Positions 33,150-42,435 of a stretch of DNA of 64,000 bases are shown here, in pieces. The notes under the pieces are model-generated. The model made no database searches and had not been told where the DNA came from. It was given only the letters and a program-made list of their open reading frames with translations. Origin of the DNA: Alkalicoccus halolimnae (GTDB taxonomy: Bacteria; Bacillota; Bacilli; Bacillales; Salisediminibacteriaceae); contig NZ_CP144914.1 of NCBI RefSeq assembly GCF_008014775.2, positions 2,108,001 through 2,172,000 of the forward strand, in the 5' to 3' direction. Every line of letters starts with the position of its first letter. The stretch's first letter is position 1. A program made the translations under genes and the position numbers.

Positions 33150-33917
33150 TCATTCTACAGTTATATCCTCTTCTTCCCGGAATGATTCAAAATATGGGTT
33201 GAGCCGCATATGAATGATTCCTTCCTGATCAGGTTCCAGCTGCTGAACTATTGTCGGGTATGGCTCCATTCTCTCTGCAAAGGCTCTTATAGTAGAACTG
33301 ACTGTCCAGCCATCGTTCATTAAAACCGTTACTCTATCCGGGTTACTTTCATCAGGATTATAAATCACTTCTGAAATACGTCCTCTTAACGATTCTGACA
33401 TTTTTCCAAGCTCCATGGCAGTTTCCTCAATCAGCGCCGCATCTTCAAAATCCCGTAGAAGAGGGACACTTCCTATTTTTACTTCTGCTGAATCATAAAG
33501 TTTTCCATTTTCTAAAACTGGTAAAGGTTTTCCTTCATTTTGAGATACACTGGCAATCACTTTATATTCTTCAATGTGGATGATAACTTTGTTAAACCAT
33601 CCTCTTGAAATTGAGGCATCAGTTACAGCATCGTGACTCTCTATCCGCTCCGTTCGGTCCTCTTTATTTAAGCTCCAGATGTTCACTTCATGATTCAGTT
33701 CAGACAAAGCGATCACTTCGCTATCCCCCATTGTTTCTGCTCCAGTAACTTCAATGCTTTTCACATTGCTGAATCCACTTTGTAAATAGACCATTACTGC
33801 AATTAATATCAGGAAAATAGAAACGTAGACAATGAACCTCCGCCGTGATCGCTGCTTTCTTTGTTCTTTCAGCTGGGGTAATTTATCCTGCATATCAACT
33901 ACCGTTTTATCGGCCAT
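33150..33917 (-). CDS. divIB: Cell division protein DivIB (FtsQ)
   Basis: A bitopic membrane protein that works with FtsL and DivIC to activate septal wall synthesis. It has 255 residues: a basic cytoplasmic tail (KEQRKQRSRRR), one membrane helix (about 30-48), a POTRA domain starting VKSIEVTGAETM, and a beta domain ending in an acidic tail REEEDITVE. ATG at 33917 follows GGGGGGAAGG. It lies directly behind murG; murB, which is between them in B. subtilis, is absent. Confidence 0.93.
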   Translation of the reverse strand: MADKTVVDMQDKLPQLKEQRKQRSRRRFIVYVSIFLILIAVMVYLQSGFSNVKSIEVTGAETMGDSEVIALSELNHEVNIWSLNKEDRTERIESHDAVTDASISRGWFNKVIIHIEEYKVIASVSQNEGKPLPVLENGKLYDSAEVKIGSVPLLRDFEDAALIEETAMELGKMSESLRGRISEVIYNPDESNPDRVTVLMNDGWTVSSTIRAFAERMEPYPTIVQQLEPDQEGIIHMRLNPYFESFREEEDITVE

Positions 33918-33933
33918 TACCTTCCCCCCATAA

Positions 33934-35022
33934 TCAGCCTTTTTTCAATGCTTTCATTTCTCTGGACAATAAAGCTGCTGCTTCCGGCACTCCAGCCTCG
34001 AAAGCTTTTTCTTTCATTTTAATCTGGTTATTTTTATCGAGACCGGACCGGATAGAAGCTGTCAGCAGTTCAGCTGTCAGTTCGTTTTCTTCAAGCAGAA
34101 TCGCAGCACCTTTATCCACTAAAGCACTTGCATTTTTGAATTGATGATTATTCGTTACGTGCGGACTTGGTACAAGAATCGAGGGGAGACCGAGTGCCGT
34201 AATTTCCGCTAATGTTGTTGCTCCAGCACGTGCAATGACCAGATGTACTTCTTTTAGGAGTGCAGGCATATCGTCAATATAGGATACAGTTTTAATATTG
34301 TTACTGCTGACTCCTGCCATTTTATCAGCAATTTCCTCGTAATGAACTTCTCCCGTTACATATACCACTTGGAAAGATTCTTCCTTCCAGTCCTGAAAAG
34401 CTGCCATTACTGCTTCATTAATAGGTTTTGCTCCTCTGCTGCCACCTACAATCAAAACTGTCGGCTTATTCTCTGAAAGACCCAGGGCGGCAAGAGAAGA
34501 ATGATCACTTTTATGCTCCGCAACTTCAGAAGCCCGGGGATTCCCCGTGAAGACAACTTTGTCTTTTGGGAAATACTGGGCTGCTTCTTCAAAAGAAACC
34601 GCAACTTTATCTACATATTTTGAAAGGAATTTATTCGTTAAGCCGGGTACACTGTTCTGCTCATGAACGATAGTTGGTATCCCAGCTCTGGCAGCTGCAA
34701 AAACAACCGGACCACAAACATATCCTCCTGTTCCAATAACAACATCGGGATTAAAATCTGATATATATTTTTTTGCTGTACGGGTCGCTTTTACAAATCT
34801 GGCTATCGTTTTTACATTCTCAAAACTGATTTTGCGCCGGAAACCTGTTATATGCACACTTTTAAACGGAACTCCTGCTTTAGGAACGATTGAAGCTTCC
34901 AGACCTTTTTCAGTACCTATATATAGGAATTCTGCGTTCTCTTCTCTTTCCAAATGACGGATAAGTGCTAAAGCGGGATAAATATGACCACCTGTCCCAC
35001 CGCCGGATACTAAAACTTTCAT
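33934..35022 (-). CDS. murG: UDP-GlcNAc:lipid I GlcNAc transferase
   Basis: Peripheral membrane GT28 enzyme that adds GlcNAc to lipid I, giving lipid II. It has 362 residues. The N-terminal glycine loop GGGTGGHIYPALA lies at residues 7-19 and a second one GGSRGAKPINEAV near 187. The UDP-GlcNAc site reads ITALGLPSILVPSPHVTNNHQ. ATG at 35022 follows GGAGG. It starts 3 nt behind murD. Confidence 0.97.
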   Translation of the reverse strand: MKVLVSGGGTGGHIYPALALIRHLEREENAEFLYIGTEKGLEASIVPKAGVPFKSVHITGFRRKISFENVKTIARFVKATRTAKKYISDFNPDVVIGTGGYVCGPVVFAAARAGIPTIVHEQNSVPGLTNKFLSKYVDKVAVSFEEAAQYFPKDKVVFTGNPRASEVAEHKSDHSSLAALGLSENKPTVLIVGGSRGAKPINEAVMAAFQDWKEESFQVVYVTGEVHYEEIADKMAGVSSNNIKTVSYIDDMPALLKEVHLVIARAGATTLAEITALGLPSILVPSPHVTNNHQFKNASALVDKGAAILLEENELTAELLTASIRSGLDKNNQIKMKEKAFEAGVPEAAALLSREMKALKKG

Positions 35023-35025
35023 CGC

Positions 35026-36405
35026 TTACCTGCCTCCATGATTTGCTTTATGATCGGACGTATATTCATTAACAGCTTCAATAAACGTTTCCCCGCGCTC
35101 CTCAAACGTTTTAAATTGATCCCATGATGCACAGGCAGGAGATAACAGAACGATGTCTCCTTCAGCAGAAAGCTTTACCGCTTGTAAAACAGCTTCTTCT
35201 AAACTCTCAAGTTCGTGTATTTCATTTACACGGGCTGCTCTGCCTGCTTCTGCAAGCTTTCCTGCTGTTTCACCATATGTAAGCATAGCTTTAACATTAT
35301 GAAGCGAATTTGTTAATTCGTTAAAAGGCAGTCCTCTGTCAAGACCTCCACAAAGGAGAATTACAGGTTTTTCAAATGCTTCGAGAGAAGTAATGGCTGC
35401 AGGAACATTAGTAGCCTTAGAGTTATTATAAAAACTCCTCCCCTTCCATTCTTTTACAAACTGAAGCCTGTGCTTTACTCCGCTGAATGATTTCATCACC
35501 GATCCGATGCTTTTTATATCTGCTCCAGCTGTTTTGGCAGCACAGCCTGCTGCCATGGCATTTGCAATGTTATATTCTCCAGGAAGAGAAAATGCTTCCA
35601 AAGATGATGCGGGTTCACCCATTATAAAGATCATTCCTTCTTTAATATATGCACCGCTTTTCTGCTCGGATTTCAAAGAAAAGGGAATCTTCTGCGCTGA
35701 GGCATCTTCGACCATATCAACCACTGTTGGATCGTCTGCATTATAAATAAGATAATCGTCTTCTGTCTGGTATCGGAAAATCTGTTTTTTCGCCCGGATG
35801 TATTCTTCTCTGGTTCCGTGATAATCAAGATGGGCATCTACGAGATTTAACAATACGGCCGTTTTCGGACGAAAGGAATCTATTCCCATTAGTTGAAAAC
35901 TGGATAATTCCATTACCAGATTATTATCAGCTTGGGCGTTTCTAACAACTCCGGAAGCAGCTTCTCCTATATTGCCTGCTGTGAGCGGAGATAACCCGGA
36001 TGCTCTGAGCATCTCTCCTATCATCGTAGTAGTTGTTGTTTTTCCATTTGATCCGGTTACCGCAGTAATTGGACAAGGAGATGAATCATAGGCGAGCTGA
36101 ATCTCTGTCAGAATAGGGATGGCGAGCTCTGCCGCTTTAGATATCATCGGATGATCATAACGGATTCCCGGATTTTTCACTACCGTATCCAGTCCATTAT
36201 GAATTAAATCAAGCGGATGACTCCCGCAGATAACCTCTGCGCCCAGTTCTTTCAATTCCTGAGCCTGCTTGTTACCGGCAAATGGCGTCTGGTCATTAAC
36301 TGTTACTTTGGCTCCGAGTTCCAAAAGCAATTTTGCGGCTTCTGTTCCACTTCTTGCCAGTCCAAGTACAAGAACATTTTTATTTAACCACCTTGTTGTT
36401 TGCAT
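35026..36405 (-). CDS. murD: UDP-MurNAc-L-alanine:D-glutamate ligase
   Basis: Adds D-Glu to UDP-MurNAc-L-Ala (cytoplasmic wall precursor synthesis). It has 459 residues. The ATP P-loop is intact: TAVTGSNGKTTTTTMIGEML near residue 120. The central-domain ligands (NLVDAHLDYHGTREEY) and C-terminal SPACASWDQFKTFEERG are also present. ATG at 36405 shares its A with the mraY stop (TAATG), with GGAGG 10 nt upstream. In B. subtilis spoVE follows; here murG follows directly. Confidence 0.97.
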   Translation of the reverse strand: MQTTRWLNKNVLVLGLARSGTEAAKLLLELGAKVTVNDQTPFAGNKQAQELKELGAEVICGSHPLDLIHNGLDTVVKNPGIRYDHPMISKAAELAIPILTEIQLAYDSSPCPITAVTGSNGKTTTTTMIGEMLRASGLSPLTAGNIGEAASGVVRNAQADNNLVMELSSFQLMGIDSFRPKTAVLLNLVDAHLDYHGTREEYIRAKKQIFRYQTEDDYLIYNADDPTVVDMVEDASAQKIPFSLKSEQKSGAYIKEGMIFIMGEPASSLEAFSLPGEYNIANAMAAGCAAKTAGADIKSIGSVMKSFSGVKHRLQFVKEWKGRSFYNNSKATNVPAAITSLEAFEKPVILLCGGLDRGLPFNELTNSLHNVKAMLTYGETAGKLAEAGRAARVNEIHELESLEEAVLQAVKLSAEGDIVLLSPACASWDQFKTFEERGETFIEAVNEYTSDHKANHGGR

Positions 36406-37379
36406 TAAAGACCTACCTCCAGCCAAATTCCAGTAACTGCAAAAAGTAATCCGACAGCCCAGAAAGTTAATACGACTCGCCATTCACTCCAACCGGATAG
36501 TTCATAATGATGGTGAAGAGGGCTCATCTTAAATACTCTTTTTTTCCTGATCTTATACGAGGCTACCTGCAGAATAACAGAGAGAGTTTCAATAACGAAA
36601 ACGCCGCCTATAAGTACTAACAGGAGTTCTGTTTTCGTAAAGATAGCTATCATAGCAAGAGCTCCGCCGAGTGCCAGAGACCCTGTGTCTCCCATAAAAA
36701 CCTTTGCAGGATGGGCATTGAATACTAGAAATCCAAGTACGGCTCCTACTATGGCCAGCGAAAAGATCGACACAGTCCAAAGCCCGGATAAAGCAGCAAT
36801 TATTCCAAAGGCTGTAAAAGCAACCGCTGCAGTACCTGCCACGAGGCCGTCCAGACCATCCGTCAGATTCACAGCATTGCTTGCTCCTACCAGCATAATG
36901 ATGATGAGAGGGAAATAAAACCAGCCGATATCCACTGCCAGATTCGTCCCCGGCACTCCTATTTCAGTCGAAAGGCCAGTCTGCTGAAGAACAAAATAGA
37001 CAACAGCAGAAATCACTACCTGCCCGAGGAATTTTTGTTTTGAAGTAAGACCAAGATTTCTTTTCTTTACGACTTTGATAAAGTCATCCAAAAACCCAAG
37101 CGTTCCAAAACCGATTGTTACGAGTAAAAGCAGCCATACTTCCACTCCGAGAGTATGAAACTGACCGGCAATGATCAATGAAGAAACCGCCGCCGCAAAA
37201 ATGATCATCGTACCGCCCATCGTAGGTGTACCGGTTTTTTTATGATGGGATTCTGGTCCTTCATTCCGTATACTCTGTCCAAATTTTAATTTCTGTAAAA
37301 ATGGTATAAAGACAGGTGAGATAAATACAGTTAATAAAAAAGCAAGTAATAAGGCAAAAAACAGCCCATTTTCAAACAT
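36405..37379 (-). CDS. mraY: Phospho-MurNAc-pentapeptide translocase
   Basis: A ten-helix membrane enzyme that transfers phospho-MurNAc-pentapeptide to undecaprenyl phosphate (lipid I). It has 324 residues, identical to the usual length. Landmarks: [12 protein letters not shown] near 45, [34 protein letters not shown], and the HHH motif in [16 protein letters not shown] at 37379 follows GAGAGGGG. Confidence 0.97.
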
Positions 37380-37394
37380 GAAACTTTCCCCTCT

Positions 37395-38600
37395 CTAATT
37401 CCTGTTCAGTTGATGCAGGATTTGATAAATAAGTTCTCTGTTCGCACCTTTATACATAATAACGTTCGGTCCGTTCAGAGCTCCGCGCAGATCATCAATC
37501 GCATCAACATGCGTTTTGTAGTACTGCGTATTTAAATTTTTTCTTCCCGCTCTCGATAATGCATCAGACACCCAGAATGCTTTTTCTCCTACAGCAAACA
37601 CATCTGTTATCGAACTGGTAATATGATCTGCGAATAATTCGTGTACGGATTTGTGAAACCGATCCGCCTGAAAACCCTCATCAATTACGAGTATGCGCCT
37701 TTCAAACGGCTGAATGTGGGACAGCCAGCCTAATGAATAGTCAAGATTGGTTTTCTCCATTGCTTCTGCTTCAAATAAAACGAGCCCATCTGCTCTCGTT
37801 TTCATCGTCTGAAAGCCAAAAGCTTCCGCTGTAAGCAGTTCCATGGGAGGAACATCCTGGCCGGTAATCACTTTATAAACAGAAGCTGCAGCTTCAAGAA
37901 GCGGTCTGTAACTTTCCAGCCAGGAGGGAATGGTGAGGTGCTTCGTTTCCGGATAATTCGGCAGCAGAGATGCATGAAAAGTATTCGAACTGCCTTCCTC
38001 TACTTCTGCTTCATCAAAAGCATCGGCGTTGTAATAGCTGACCAGTGCTATATCCGGTTGAAGCAGAGAAGCCATCTCATGCATCCGGCGGCTGCTTTCC
38101 ACCGCTTCCACAAAGACTAGTTCCGTATCCAGATCTAAAGACAGGATCAATTCTGCAGTATCAACTGCTTTTGTTTCCTGTTCTTTGATCACTTCTGTAT
38201 TTTTCCCTGAAGTCCACGTTTTCAGAACGCGCAGGATAAAAGATGCTGTATAATCGCCTTCTACAAATACTACTTCTGCACGATGTTCTTTTAAATATTC
38301 CGCAGCCAGGTGACGGCAGACTGAGGCAGGGTCTTCCGTAATAAAAAGGGGAAAGTCTTCAGGAACCGTCTGTGGTATCGGTTCGCCTGCACGCCAGAGA
38401 GCTCCTGCTGCCCCTCCTTCTATTGCTGCTTCAATAAACTGGTGACCGTCGTACCTTTCTTCTTCTCTAGGAATAAAAAGGGTCCCTGTTTCTACATCAT
38501 AAATATTGCTTACCACTTTCGGAAAAGAAATTTTCGAGTTTAAACCCTGTACTTTTTTTACAAGAGGAGCCAACTTTTCGGATGATACGAATGCTGTCAT
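37395..38600 (-). CDS. MurF-like protein lacking catalytic motifs
   Basis: Occupies the murF slot between murE and mraY and keeps the overall outline of UDP-MurNAc-tripeptide:D-Ala-D-Ala ligase in 401 residues (usual about 450). The N-terminal domain is clear: GTLFIPREEERYDGHQFIEA at 39-58, then GAAGALW. At the expected ATP P-loop (GxNGKT) it reads VFVEGDYTASFIL at 111-123, without Gly-Lys-Thr. The central Asn/His ligands and C-terminal DxYN-type motif are likewise unrecognisable, although RRILVIDEGFQADRFHKSVHELF and GPNVIMYKGANREL echo the C-terminal domain. The frame is intact, ATG at 38600 overlaps the murE stop (ATGA) with AAAGGAG upstream, so it looks expressed. It may be a pseudo-enzyme; a functional murF should exist elsewhere. 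It could also be a highly diverged member with changed chemistry. Confidence 0.75.
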   Translation of the reverse strand: MTAFVSSEKLAPLVKKVQGLNSKISFPKVVSNIYDVETGTLFIPREEERYDGHQFIEAAIEGGAAGALWRAGEPIPQTVPEDFPLFITEDPASVCRHLAAEYLKEHRAEVVFVEGDYTASFILRVLKTWTSGKNTEVIKEQETKAVDTAELILSLDLDTELVFVEAVESSRRMHEMASLLQPDIALVSYYNADAFDEAEVEEGSSNTFHASLLPNYPETKHLTIPSWLESYRPLLEAAASVYKVITGQDVPPMELLTAEAFGFQTMKTRADGLVLFEAEAMEKTNLDYSLGWLSHIQPFERRILVIDEGFQADRFHKSVHELFADHITSSITDVFAVGEKAFWVSDALSRAGRKNLNTQYYKTHVDAIDDLRGALNGPNVIMYKGANRELIYQILHQLNRN

Positions 38601-40069
38601 TCTACCCACTCCTTTAAAGCTTTCTCTGCTGCTTTTTTGTCATCGAAATAAATTCGGTCCCTGCCTATTTCCTGATAAGTTTCATGGCCCTTTCCTGCGA
38701 TTAAAACTACATCTCCTGGCTTCGCTTTCCTAACAGCCTCGTTAATAGCTTCTTCTCTGTCAACAATGACATTATAACGTATTCCGCTCATTCCTGATTT
38801 CATTTCTTCAATTATTGCTTCAGGTTTTTCTGTGCGGGGGTTATCTGATGTTAAATAAGTAAAGCTGCTGTACTTCTCAGCAATAGCCGCCATCAGAGGA
38901 CGTTTCTTTCTGTCTCTGTCTCCTCCGCAGCCTATGACTGTAATTATTTTTCCTTCCGCTGCATCCTTAATGGTCTGAAGCACATTTTCCAGACTGTCCG
39001 GCGTGTGAGCGTAGTCCACGAGAGCGTGAACCGGCGCCGAAGAAAATACAGGTTCAAACCTGCCTCTGACCCCTTTTAAAAGTGGAATAAGCGGAATAAT
39101 TTCCTGCCATCTCCAACCATAAGCGTACAATGCTGAAGCAGCTGCAAGAGCATTATAAATAGAAAAACGCCCTGGAAGATTCAGGGTAACGTGATCACGG
39201 ATTCCAGGAGCACAAAAGTAAAAATTTGACCTACCTCCACTGAGCTCCACCTCTTCGGCACGAACCGCTGCATGTTTAGAAAGTCCATAAGTGATGAGCG
39301 GTGCTGCTGAAGCTTCCATCATAATTTCAGAATATGGATCATCAACATTAATAACAGAATAAGGCTGTCGTTCTTTTACAAAACCGCTCCCCAGCTGAGC
39401 GAAAAGCAGACTCTTTGCTCTGGCATAATCTTCCATAGTAGCATGATAATCAAGGTGGTCCTGCGAAAGATTCGTATAAACAGCTATATCAAATCGAGTT
39501 CCGTGAATTCTTCCATTGGAAAGGGCATGGGAAGAAACTTCCATCGCTGCTGCTTCTGTTTCAGCATCCCGCATATCCCTGAGAATTTTTTGAAGTACAA
39601 TCGATTCCGGGGTAGTATTATTGGAGGAAATTTCCTTTCCAGCATATTTTGTGTACATAGTACCAATAATTCCGGTCTCAACTTCGAGAAGCTCCAGCAT
39701 TTGTTCGAGGAAGTGGGTCACGGAGGTTTTACCGTTAGTACCAGTTACCCCGATCATTTTAAGTTCCTGGCTTGGATATTCATAAAAACGAGCTGATATT
39801 AACGCCATCGCTCTTCTTACATCCGGGACCTGGATAACAGGTACGGACATTTGAATCGGCCTGTCCGTTACGAGAGCAGCTGCTCCAGCCTCCACAGCTT
39901 CCTGTGCGAAATCATGCCCATCAACGGTGAAGCCAGGAACGCAAAAGAACAACGATTTTTTTTCAATTAATCTTGAATCCATTGATATCGTTTCTATTAT
40001 CGTTTTCTCTTCAAACCCCGAAACCTCACATACAGGAAGCAGAGAAACTATTTCTTTTAATGACATCAT
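38597..40069 (-). CDS. murE: UDP-MurNAc-tripeptide synthetase (meso-diaminopimelate-adding)
   Basis: Adds the third amino acid to UDP-MurNAc-L-Ala-D-Glu. It has 490 residues with P-loop IGVTGTNGKTSVTHFLE near residue 105, central YTNLSQDHLDYHATMEDY, and C-terminal SDNPRTEKP. The DNPR motif indicates meso-diaminopimelate as substrate, so the wall is the direct mDAP type. ATG at 40069 is preferred over one at 40081, which would touch the AAGGA site. It has a promoter of its own upstream, following the pbpB terminator. Confidence 0.96.
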   Translation of the reverse strand: MMSLKEIVSLLPVCEVSGFEEKTIIETISMDSRLIEKKSLFFCVPGFTVDGHDFAQEAVEAGAAALVTDRPIQMSVPVIQVPDVRRAMALISARFYEYPSQELKMIGVTGTNGKTSVTHFLEQMLELLEVETGIIGTMYTKYAGKEISSNNTTPESIVLQKILRDMRDAETEAAAMEVSSHALSNGRIHGTRFDIAVYTNLSQDHLDYHATMEDYARAKSLLFAQLGSGFVKERQPYSVINVDDPYSEIMMEASAAPLITYGLSKHAAVRAEEVELSGGRSNFYFCAPGIRDHVTLNLPGRFSIYNALAAASALYAYGWRWQEIIPLIPLLKGVRGRFEPVFSSAPVHALVDYAHTPDSLENVLQTIKDAAEGKIITVIGCGGDRDRKKRPLMAAIAEKYSSFTYLTSDNPRTEKPEAIIEEMKSGMSGIRYNVIVDREEAINEAVRKAKPGDVVLIAGKGHETYQEIGRDRIYFDDKKAAEKALKEWVE

Positions 40070-40111
40070 AACTTTTATCATCCTTTTATTATTTCAAAAT
40101 GTCCGTCATCC

Positions 40112-40140
40112 ATTCTACTTATTTACGGTGAGTTTGTCAT
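40112..40140 (-). promoter_or_regulatory. Candidate sigma-A promoter for murE
   Basis: Minus strand: ATGACA (40135-40140), 17-nt spacer, TAGAAT (40112-40117), about 45 nt upstream of the murE start and after the pbpB terminator. It would drive murE-murF-like-mraY-murD-murG-divIB. Confidence 0.6.
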
Positions 40141-40202
40141 ACTTTTTTTAATGTATGTATTATCAAATTTCGAGCAGCATTCCATAATTGGGAAGCAGAT
40201 GA

Positions 40203-40240
40203 TTTAAAAGTGCTGCTTAAACATTAGTAAAGCAGCACCT
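40203..40240 (-). terminator. Terminator of the mraZ-pbpB transcript
   Basis: Minus-strand stem GTGCTGCTT / AAGCAGCAC followed by TTTTAAA, 12 nt beyond the pbpB stop. It divides the dcw cluster into two transcripts at the point where spoVD lies in spore formers. Confidence 0.8.
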
Positions 40241-40251
40241 TCTGAATCTTC

Positions 40252-42435
40252 TTACTCAGGAAGCTGTAAAGTTTCCTCCTGATCTTCCTGCTCTTCCTGA
40301 CTTTCTTCTTCCGGGTCTCCTAATTCAATCTTGATATTATCTATTTCATCTACAGGAGTTCCAGGTAAAGGCTCCTGAGCTACAGCAAACCCGCTTCCAC
40401 TATAGTCCACCTCTGCTCCAATAAGCGAAGCCAGCTGCTGAACATTTCGAAGGCTCCAACCATCGATTTCCGGCATGTAAGCCTCTCCGGAAGCCTGAAG
40501 AATTATCTTTTCCTCCGGTGCAAGCAGCGTCCCTTCCTCATAGGACTGGGCTCTTATTACTCTGCCTTCTCCGATAATAACAGGTTCCATACCTTCTTCT
40601 TCTAATGAGTCTAACACTTTCTCCCTGTTTTCACCCGAAAAGTCCGGAGTTACAAAATCTTCTCCCAGTTCCACGGTTTCCGTACTTTCTTCCTCATGTG
40701 GAGCAATATTCAAATACTGCATACTCTGCTCCATAACCTGCCGGAACACCATGGAGACAGGACGGTTGCCATATTCCGTTTCTTCCAGATCCGGACGTTC
40801 CACGGCTACATAAACGACCACTTGAGGATCGTCTGCCGGTGCCATACCAATGAAAGAGTAAATATTTTCACCATGGCCGGATATATATCCCCCTCCGTCT
40901 TCACGAGGGATTTGAGCTGTCCCCGTTTTTCCAGCAATGTCATACCCTTCTATTCCATAAATACCTCCTGTTCCTTCTTCTTCAGATACTACCGTTTCAA
41001 GAATGTCTCTCACTTCTTTGGCAGTTTCAGCCGATATTGGTTCGCCTGTCGATTCCGGCTCGTTTTTAGTGACTACTTCCCCTGTTGTTCCATCAACTAT
41101 TTCTGATACAACATAAGGTTTCATCATTTTGCCGTCGTTCGCAACTGCAAGTGCAGCATGCACCTGCTGCATCGGAGAAATGGAAGTAGCCTGGCCGAAA
41201 GCCGTAGTCGCTGCATCGATAGTATAGGATTCTGCTATCTGACCACCGCTCACTTCATTAGGAAGATCAATGCCTGTCGGTGTTCTGAATCCAAAAGAAT
41301 CAATATACTCATATAATTTTTCAGGACCAAGAATTTCAATAGCTATTTTCGAAAATGCTACATTGGAAGATCGCTGGACCCCTTCGTTAAAAGTGATTTC
41401 TCCCCAGCCTTCCCCGTTATTGTGATCTCGGATTGTTCTGTCGGTAACCTGATACCTGCCCGATTCAAAGGTATCCTCACCGTCATATACTCCTTCTTCA
41501 ATTGCAGCAGCAAGAGTAAACATTTTCATTGTGGATCCAGGCTCGAACCTGGAGGAGATGTTGTAATTTGTATAGTTTTCCACATTTTCATACTCATTCG
41601 GGTTAAAACTCGGGCGATTGGACATAGCGAGAATTTCCCCGGTTTCAGCGTGTGCTGCTATCGCCATCATTTTTTCCGGTTCGTACATTTCATCAACCTG
41701 GTCCATTGTTTGTTCCATTGCCATTTGTATGCGTGAATCCAGTGTAAGGACTACGTCATCACCGTGATCGGGACTGCTGATAATTTCCTGTGCCTGGGAA
41801 AGCGGCCTGCCTCTTCCATCCTGTTGATATTCAATATAACCAGATTCTCCCTGGAGATAGTTATTCAGGCTGCTTTCCAGCCCCATACGCGCTTCTGACA
41901 TATCACGTTCAGTATAACCGATAATATGGGAGGCGAAGGTCTGGTTGGGATAATACCTGCGCGGATCCTCTCTGAATGTAATACCCGGAAGTTCCAGGGC
42001 TTCGATATTTTCCCGTGTTTCATAACTCAAATTTTTAGCAGTTGCCCCAAGTTCTACCTGCACCGAATCCTTTAAGAACTGGCTCTCATAATAATCTGCA
42101 CTGCCTCCAAGTACCGACGCAAGAGCATCAGCCGTTTCTTTCGGTTCGCTAACGTGGGATTCGTATCTGTCATCAAGAATGGCAACTATCGAATAGGAAG
42201 GAATTTCCTCTGCAAGCGTTTCTCCATTTCTGTCAACTATGTTTCCGCGCTCTCCGTGAATTGGAATTGTCTCCGTCCATCTTGTTTCCAATAACTCTGC
42301 AAGATTTACATCCTGCACTTCTTTAGAAGCCTGAATATATATAAAACGCGAAAACATTATCATTATAGCGAATCCAAAAATAATCACCATCGCTACAGCA
42401 CGCCTTGTAATTTTACGATTCTTTTTTAATTCCAC
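40252..42435 (-). CDS. pbpB: Septal transpeptidase PBP2B
   Basis: Class B penicillin-binding protein that cross-links septal peptidoglycan with FtsW. It has 727 residues. Order: N-terminal membrane anchor (about 14-34), dimerisation domain, then the transpeptidase motifs EPGSTMKMF (SxxK), RSSNVAF (SxN) and AGKTGTAQ (KTG), and two C-terminal PASTA domains. It ends with a very acidic tail (GDPEEESQEEQEDQEETLQ). The start is GTG at 42435 with GAGGTGG upstream. The paralogue spoVD that normally follows is missing, so this is the only class B PBP in the cluster. Confidence 0.96.
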   Translation of the reverse strand: MELKKNRKITRRAVAMVIIFGFAIMIMFSRFIYIQASKEVQDVNLAELLETRWTETIPIHGERGNIVDRNGETLAEEIPSYSIVAILDDRYESHVSEPKETADALASVLGGSADYYESQFLKDSVQVELGATAKNLSYETRENIEALELPGITFREDPRRYYPNQTFASHIIGYTERDMSEARMGLESSLNNYLQGESGYIEYQQDGRGRPLSQAQEIISSPDHGDDVVLTLDSRIQMAMEQTMDQVDEMYEPEKMMAIAAHAETGEILAMSNRPSFNPNEYENVENYTNYNISSRFEPGSTMKMFTLAAAIEEGVYDGEDTFESGRYQVTDRTIRDHNNGEGWGEITFNEGVQRSSNVAFSKIAIEILGPEKLYEYIDSFGFRTPTGIDLPNEVSGGQIAESYTIDAATTAFGQATSISPMQQVHAALAVANDGKMMKPYVVSEIVDGTTGEVVTKNEPESTGEPISAETAKEVRDILETVVSEEEGTGGIYGIEGYDIAGKTGTAQIPREDGGGYISGHGENIYSFIGMAPADDPQVVVYVAVERPDLEETEYGNRPVSMVFRQVMEQSMQYLNIAPHEEESTETVELGEDFVTPDFSGENREKVLDSLEEEGMEPVIIGEGRVIRAQSYEEGTLLAPEEKIILQASGEAYMPEIDGWSLRNVQQLASLIGAEVDYSGSGFAVAQEPLPGTPVDEIDNIKIELGDPEEESQEEQEDQEETLQLPE

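Follow-up and report, generated by a model that had tools for sequence, protein, structure and literature searches.

A catalytically emptied MurF homologue retained under purifying selection between murE and mraY in Alkalicoccus

Why is an intact gene for a MurF homologue that has lost its ligase motifs kept between murE and mraY in the division and cell wall (dcw) cluster of Alkalicoccus halolimnae? The gene lies in a stretch of 64,000 nucleotides (hereafter the window; contig NZ_CP144914.1, positions 2,108,001 to 2,172,000), on the minus strand at 37395-38600, and runs from ATG to TAG with a single stop over 401 residues. Its product, recognised as an emptied MurF homologue from frame, homology and predicted fold, is referred to here as pseudo-MurF. 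The explanation that we favour, with moderate confidence, is that it represents the ancestral dcw murF of its family (Salisediminibacteriaceae), which would have lost catalysis while the product was kept, most likely as a scaffold or regulator between MurE and MraY.

The catalytic apparatus of MurF was not found in this protein. Residues 113-120 (38241..38264; all features given are on the minus strand) read VEGDYTAS where working MurFs align with TGSNGKTT, exactly as a preliminary description of the DNA had stated. Its further claim, that the central and C-terminal ligase motifs are unrecognisable, was borne out by a motif table, in which the carbamyl-lysine, NIGESH and NDAYNASP motifs, all with established roles in MurF, are missing, as is KASR. 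Excerpts of the literature on MurE and MurD describe a carboxylated lysine in both enzymes. A search of the whole protein for Walker A (GxxxxGK[ST] or GxxGK[ST]) found no P-loop elsewhere, and a much looser P-loop pattern gave a single match, at residue 262 (GFQTMKT), which is not a Walker A motif and is unconserved in relatives. By its sequence, pseudo-MurF is not a ligase.

The outline of the enzyme is nevertheless recognisable. No Pfam domain exceeded its cut-off in pseudo-MurF (best PF01225, E 0.18); among 14 relatives scanned, PF01225 was found in 10 and PF08245 in one at E 0.1 or better. With the NCBIfam murF model TIGR01143 it reached 50.3 bits where 288.6 are required, so the protein fails the curated definition of MurF, and a profile built from the 14 relatives matched PDB entries of MurF at 1e-24. 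The N-terminal domain (about residues 1-108; 38277..38600), delimited by NCBIfam and alignment, retains the DGHQFIE signature; within DGHQF (residues 51-55; 38436..38450), D51 and H53 occur in all 20 emptied clade relatives and G52 in 19 of them. According to the alignment and the structural model, the central domain (about residues 109-255; 37836..38276) is shortened and lacks the P-loop and carbamyl-lysine motifs, and the C-terminal domain (about residues 256-401; 37398..37835) is rebuilt, with NDAYNASP and KASR gone. Of the 32 columns that are invariant among 14 relatives, 18 fall in the latter, which is more than the bare outline that had been described for both terminal domains. The predicted structure superposes on MurF, as had been proposed as a check, and shows the three-domain Mur ligase fold; its best structural matches come from Mur ligases and related proteins.

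These losses are shared by a whole clade. We surveyed 35 genomes of the GTDB family, all with mraY, reading the murE-mraY interval in the window and in 34 others, and an open reading frame (ORF) was present there in 35/35. The dcw copy has the full MurF motifs in only three genomes, namely G022 and G025 (GSNGKT) and G010 (GSIGKT). The emptied form, without a P-loop but with the C-terminal domain kept, occupies the same slot in 20 genomes (383-463 residues as called by script), distributed over Alkalicoccus (8), Salipaludibacillus (8), Salisediminibacterium (3) and a fourth genus (1). The remaining 12 genomes carry a cut form of 220-337 residues without the C-terminal domain, one of which (G017) retains GSFGKT. 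That such a P-loop-less but open frame, with its C-terminal domain, recurs in 20 of the 35 genomes is more than chance, and a frame error is ruled out as its cause, since the frame is open in all 20. The P-loop lysine is present in none of the 20 clade members, which have Ala, Arg or a gap there, and the Arg of KASR is Asn in 20/20; no lysine stands at the carbamyl-lysine position in any of 32 non-intact family proteins. It is hardly conceivable, given these counts, that the protein remains a MurF with some other mode of ATP binding, although the predicted overall fold, an acidic residue retained at the central-Glu position in most relatives, and a Pfam central domain that still scores 28.7 bits (cut-off 24) in the emptied relative G023 point in that direction. 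The KASR change alone is weak evidence, because the membrane-type MurFs described below also lack this motif.

A tree of 82 proteins, built without the membrane type and without two very short copies, separated the dcw copies from the ddl-linked copies (ultrafast bootstrap 100). Support was 99 for the group of 33 dcw proteins from the family and 100 for that of the 20 emptied ones. This grouping indicates that the emptied gene is the old dcw murF altered in place, an orthologue descended from the dcw-cluster MurF, and that the change is older than the split of the four genera. A duplication of the ddl-linked murF as the origin of the emptied copy is rejected by the trees.

Which protein, then, performs the ligation? 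The same genome has, immediately following ddl, a murF whose GSNGKT is intact, where a second working copy had been expected. This ddl type was found in 20 of the 35 family genomes; the 12 read at sequence level all have GSNGKT, and the other eight rest on a search match. All 12 genomes with neither a ddl-type MurF nor an intact dcw copy have a MurF-like ligase of 526-532 residues with GSFGKT or GSYGKT, in which hydrophobic, probably membrane-spanning segments, as judged by eye, replace the N-terminal domain. This membrane type, presumably a working MurF in view of its P-loop, lysine and NSNP-type motifs, has neither KASR nor a standard N domain, and in these 12 genomes it is apparently the sole MurF. 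In G016 it scored 239 bits with the NCBIfam murF model, below the 288.6 cut-off, and its neighbour passes the threshold for D-Ala-D-Ala ligase. The only genomes in which neither type was found are G022, G025 and G010, those whose dcw copy is intact (Fisher p 1.5e-4, a guide only, as the genomes are related). In G014, a congener of G022 and G025, the dcw copy is cut and the membrane type is present. Absence of another MurF refers here to these two types and does not count a short MurF-like protein (frames of 367-397 residues, about 32% identity) present in seven family genomes, including G025 and G010.

Several further ligase-like genes were observed. By eye, the 12 family membrane-type loci (L134-L145) lie between an alpha/beta hydrolase gene and a D-Ala-D-Ala ligase-like gene. 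GSAGKST stands in place of GSNGKT in some MurF-like proteins of about 360 residues (L147:1981-3075, L148, L149:1681-2763), a kind present in seven family genomes; L148 has a Ddl-like gene close by. Outside its dcw cluster, the genome of pseudo-MurF also encodes an extra MurE-like ligase of 499 residues with GTNGKT (C1:2403653-2404255; L146:1599-3098); frames of similar length (510-531 residues) occur in G003, G006, G014 and G023. The idea of a split MurF, in which an N-domain protein serves the membrane-type MurF in trans, was unsupported: non-intact dcw copies coexist with a ddl-type MurF in 20 family genomes, as do short N-domain ORFs in 15/15 genomes outside the family.

The rate of protein change shows how strictly the emptied gene is maintained. 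In three close Alkalicoccus pairs, with synonymous divergence (dS) of 0.42-0.53, the ratio of nonsynonymous to synonymous rates (dN/dS) of pseudo-MurF was 0.044 (0.023-0.072), 0.040 (0.022-0.063) and 0.064 (0.036-0.104), far below the value near 1 that had been named as the mark of decay. Each of the N, central and C domains lay within 0.028-0.078. For the pair G001/G005, the corresponding values were 0.062 (0.036-0.096) for murE, compared over 380 codons from its P-loop onward and with the G007 murE not included, and 0.078 (0.050-0.108) for the working murF. Pairs were dropped where dS was infinite or very large. Codon models in IQ-TREE gave omega values for the dcw gene and murE of 0.039 and 0.057 in Alkalicoccus, 0.106 and 0.044 in Salipaludibacillus, and 0.040 and 0.009 in genus g5; these come from long trees with saturated synonymous sites, and weight is placed on the close pairs. 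Pseudo-MurF in Alkalicoccus is thus, by dN/dS, constrained about as strictly as MurE. With its catalytic motifs lost, an intact paralogue in the genome and its sequence under purifying selection, it fits the description of a pseudoenzyme derived from a Mur ligase.

New residues have also become fixed, 15 of them in the 20 proteins of the emptied clade, including D116, D307, H364, Y383 and N387 (20/20) and Q311 (18/20). In the predicted model, nine of the 15 lie in or beside the loops that follow strands 302-306, 333-337, 357-361 and 380-384, as read from its DSSP line. Past the first of these strands lies a new motif, DEGFQ (residues 307-311; 37668..37682). GEKAFW (residues 338-343; 37572..37589) follows the second, with F342 alone being new and the other residues also found in intact copies, and KGANR (residues 384-388; 37437..37451), past strand 380-384, replaces KASRG. 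The rebuilt edge of the C domain could be a new active site for ATP-free chemistry, and the fixed residues and their clustering at strand ends are what such an enzyme might display. We regard this as quite improbable, since a binding surface would account for the same residues equally well, no match to a known catalytic set was obtained, and the fold comparison places Mur ligases and their relatives at the top.

The arrangement of the neighbouring genes raises the question of whether the protein matters at all. The 3' end of murE (38597..40081; identified by sequence, Pfam and NCBIfam) reads GAATGA, the ATG of pseudo-MurF sits inside this ATGA, and AAAGGAG is found upstream, in agreement with the kept frame, overlap and good ribosome binding site described earlier; translation could alternatively begin at a GTG (38609). 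The mraY gene (36408..37379) starts 15 bases past the pseudo-MurF stop, with AGAGGGG in the gap. The P-loops of MurE (GTNGKT) and MurD (GSNGKT) are intact, as had been reported. A scan of window positions 36000-41000 with Rfam at gathering scores gave no match and thus no sign of an RNA element within the gene. We infer that MurE, pseudo-MurF and MraY are co-translated. As side observations, murD, murG and divIB are directly consecutive at 33150-36483, with spoVE and murB absent between them, two genes that in B. subtilis lie among these three; and murE is in two frames in L068 (G034; 657-2160) and L115 (G066; 325-1627; oriented coordinates), possibly through sequencing or assembly error.

The ORF might accordingly be a mere placeholder that carries ribosomes from murE to mraY, its protein being irrelevant. 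The overlap with murE and the Shine-Dalgarno sequence just before mraY fit this proposal, as do the truncated forms within the family and the slot in other families. We sampled 60 genomes of the order outside the family (of 146 located; one to three per family, 46 families), in which the slot holds an intact MurF in 28, a short ORF of 138-163 residues in 15 (G037 and G059 among them, with 161 and 153) and no ORF of at least 100 residues in 17, where gaps reach 359 bases. The 15 short ORFs align with the MurF N domain, and GGAGG stands in the last codons, just before mraY, in 9 of the 13 cases shown. Such remnants recur in many Bacillaceae (L074, L080, L081, L087, L089, L090, L110, L116, L117, L123, L129, L132 and others). 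A database search with the short ORF matched 174 proteins; among the 120 listed, from Neobacillus, Cytobacillus, Heyndrickxia, Robertmurraya and others, lengths were 143-167 residues and none had a Pfam domain. Conservation of the short form was judged on 12 sequences, and one close pair gave a dN/dS of about 0.25. With the ddl-linked query (E 1e-60 or better), one MurF was found in 59 of the 60 genomes, as the dcw copy in 28 and elsewhere in 31; the sixtieth (G068, L203) has a membrane-type MurF of about 530 residues, in a search for that type that covered the genomes other than the 28 with an intact dcw copy. For pseudo-MurF itself we consider the placeholder unlikely. A dN/dS of 0.04-0.06 over some 400 codons and all three domains, together with the 15 newly fixed residues, points to selection on the protein, and the 17 genomes without an ORF suggest that no placeholder is needed.

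Taken together, the data favour a function of the protein, without choosing among a scaffold, a regulator and new chemistry; a MurF that is retained, constrained and catalytically empty probably has a new, non-catalytic job. For the favoured scaffold or regulator, we propose that another MurF took over D-Ala-D-Ala ligation, the ddl-linked one here and the presumably active membrane type elsewhere. The dcw copy would afterwards have lost ATP binding and catalysis with its product retained, so that the ancestor of Alkalicoccus, Salipaludibacillus, Salisediminibacterium and the fourth genus possessed a three-domain pseudo-ligase with new fixed residues. Pseudo-MurF would then act by binding rather than by chemistry, keeping the precursor, or Mur enzymes as partners, in place between MurE and MraY. 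Because the genes are coupled and the site lies between these two, hand-over of the precursor or its control is a first guess.

A more specific version can be offered only tentatively. In MurE the uridine end of the precursor is held by the N domain, whose signature is common to MurE and MurF; a motif in the MurE C domain binds the incoming amino acid, and the edge of the corresponding loops is rebuilt in pseudo-MurF. The pseudo-ligase might possibly be a sensor or hand-over factor, its N domain reading UDP-MurNAc-peptide and its C-domain edge binding a new ligand or partner. If so, the flow of wall precursors would be controlled by a descendant of the pathway's own last ligase.

Several observations weigh against a conserved binding role. 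Excerpts of the MurE literature assign most of the UDP-MurNAc-tripeptide to the central domain, whose conserved residues pseudo-MurF has lost, so it may no longer bind the substrate; in the N domain, DGHQ is retained but the SxDxR-type motif has disappeared. Over long distances (G000/G001, G000/G004 and G001/G004), pseudo-MurF identity is 65, 62 and 58%, MurE identity 65, 66 and 66% and working-MurF identity 73, 70 and 76%, so that the rate of change of pseudo-MurF roughly equals or exceeds that of MurE and is higher than that of the working MurF. The emptied gene is less constrained in Salipaludibacillus (dN/dS 0.115-0.262 vs 0.052-0.087 for murE), and the 12 cut copies imply that the function is not required throughout the family. 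Emptied MurF frames can, moreover, linger: the same genome has a second one, of the membrane type (C1:2892615-2893775; L199:2113-3375, minus strand; about 390-420 residues, outside the window), with its P-loop replaced and its C-terminal domain gone, and Salipaludibacillus G019, G009 and G028 have membrane-type copies without a P-loop. The G019/G009 pair gave a dN/dS of 0.149, vs 0.024-0.045 for copies with a P-loop. These copies weaken the argument from mere presence, while the argument from constraint stands. The weaker constraint in Salipaludibacillus, the truncated copies and the second emptied MurF, along with the lost motifs and shortened protein, are also what a slowly decaying pseudogene would leave. 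Such decay is very improbable for the clade, whose frame is open in 20/20 genomes and whose derived residues are invariant across four genera, and it is ruled out for Alkalicoccus by the ratios of 0.040-0.064.

Our literature searches, with subscription papers mostly outside their scope, found nothing pairing murF with Alkalicoccus and nothing joining Mur ligase, pseudoenzyme and peptidoglycan; broader ones, judged on listings, gave no emptied Mur ligase retained in a wall cluster under enzyme-like constraint. Pseudo-MurF offers a natural separation of the structural part of MurF from its catalytic part, and the graded stages in the surveyed genomes (intact, emptied, cut, N-domain only, absent) open the question of Mur ligase complexes to genetic tests. 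Mur ligases can also be joined, and we take both halves of the MurE-MurF fusion to be ligases. That fusion (PDB 8f5d, known from its title) is a physical one, whereas here the genes are joined by ATGA coupling. According to excerpts of PMC9507126, Csd5 of H. pylori, a partner protein that directs wall synthesis, binds MurF within a Csd5-CcmA shape complex; that MurF is described there as an essential enzyme, whereas pseudo-MurF is emptied and has an intact counterpart. Excerpts of PMC12681378 describe a plant MurE homologue as PAP11 of the plastid RNA polymerase, MurE-like and with a role in transcription, whereas pseudo-MurF is a bacterial MurF homologue in a wall gene cluster. By these excerpts, both are precedents for Mur ligases serving in complexes. 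The closest known system remains MurF itself (TIGR01143; PDB 4cvm, 1gg4), the UDP-N-acetylmuramoyl-tripeptide--D-alanyl-D-alanine ligase, from which pseudo-MurF differs by its lack of the P-loop, the carbamyl-position lysine, NDAYNASP and KASR, by its score (50.3 vs 288.6 bits) and by its newly fixed residues.
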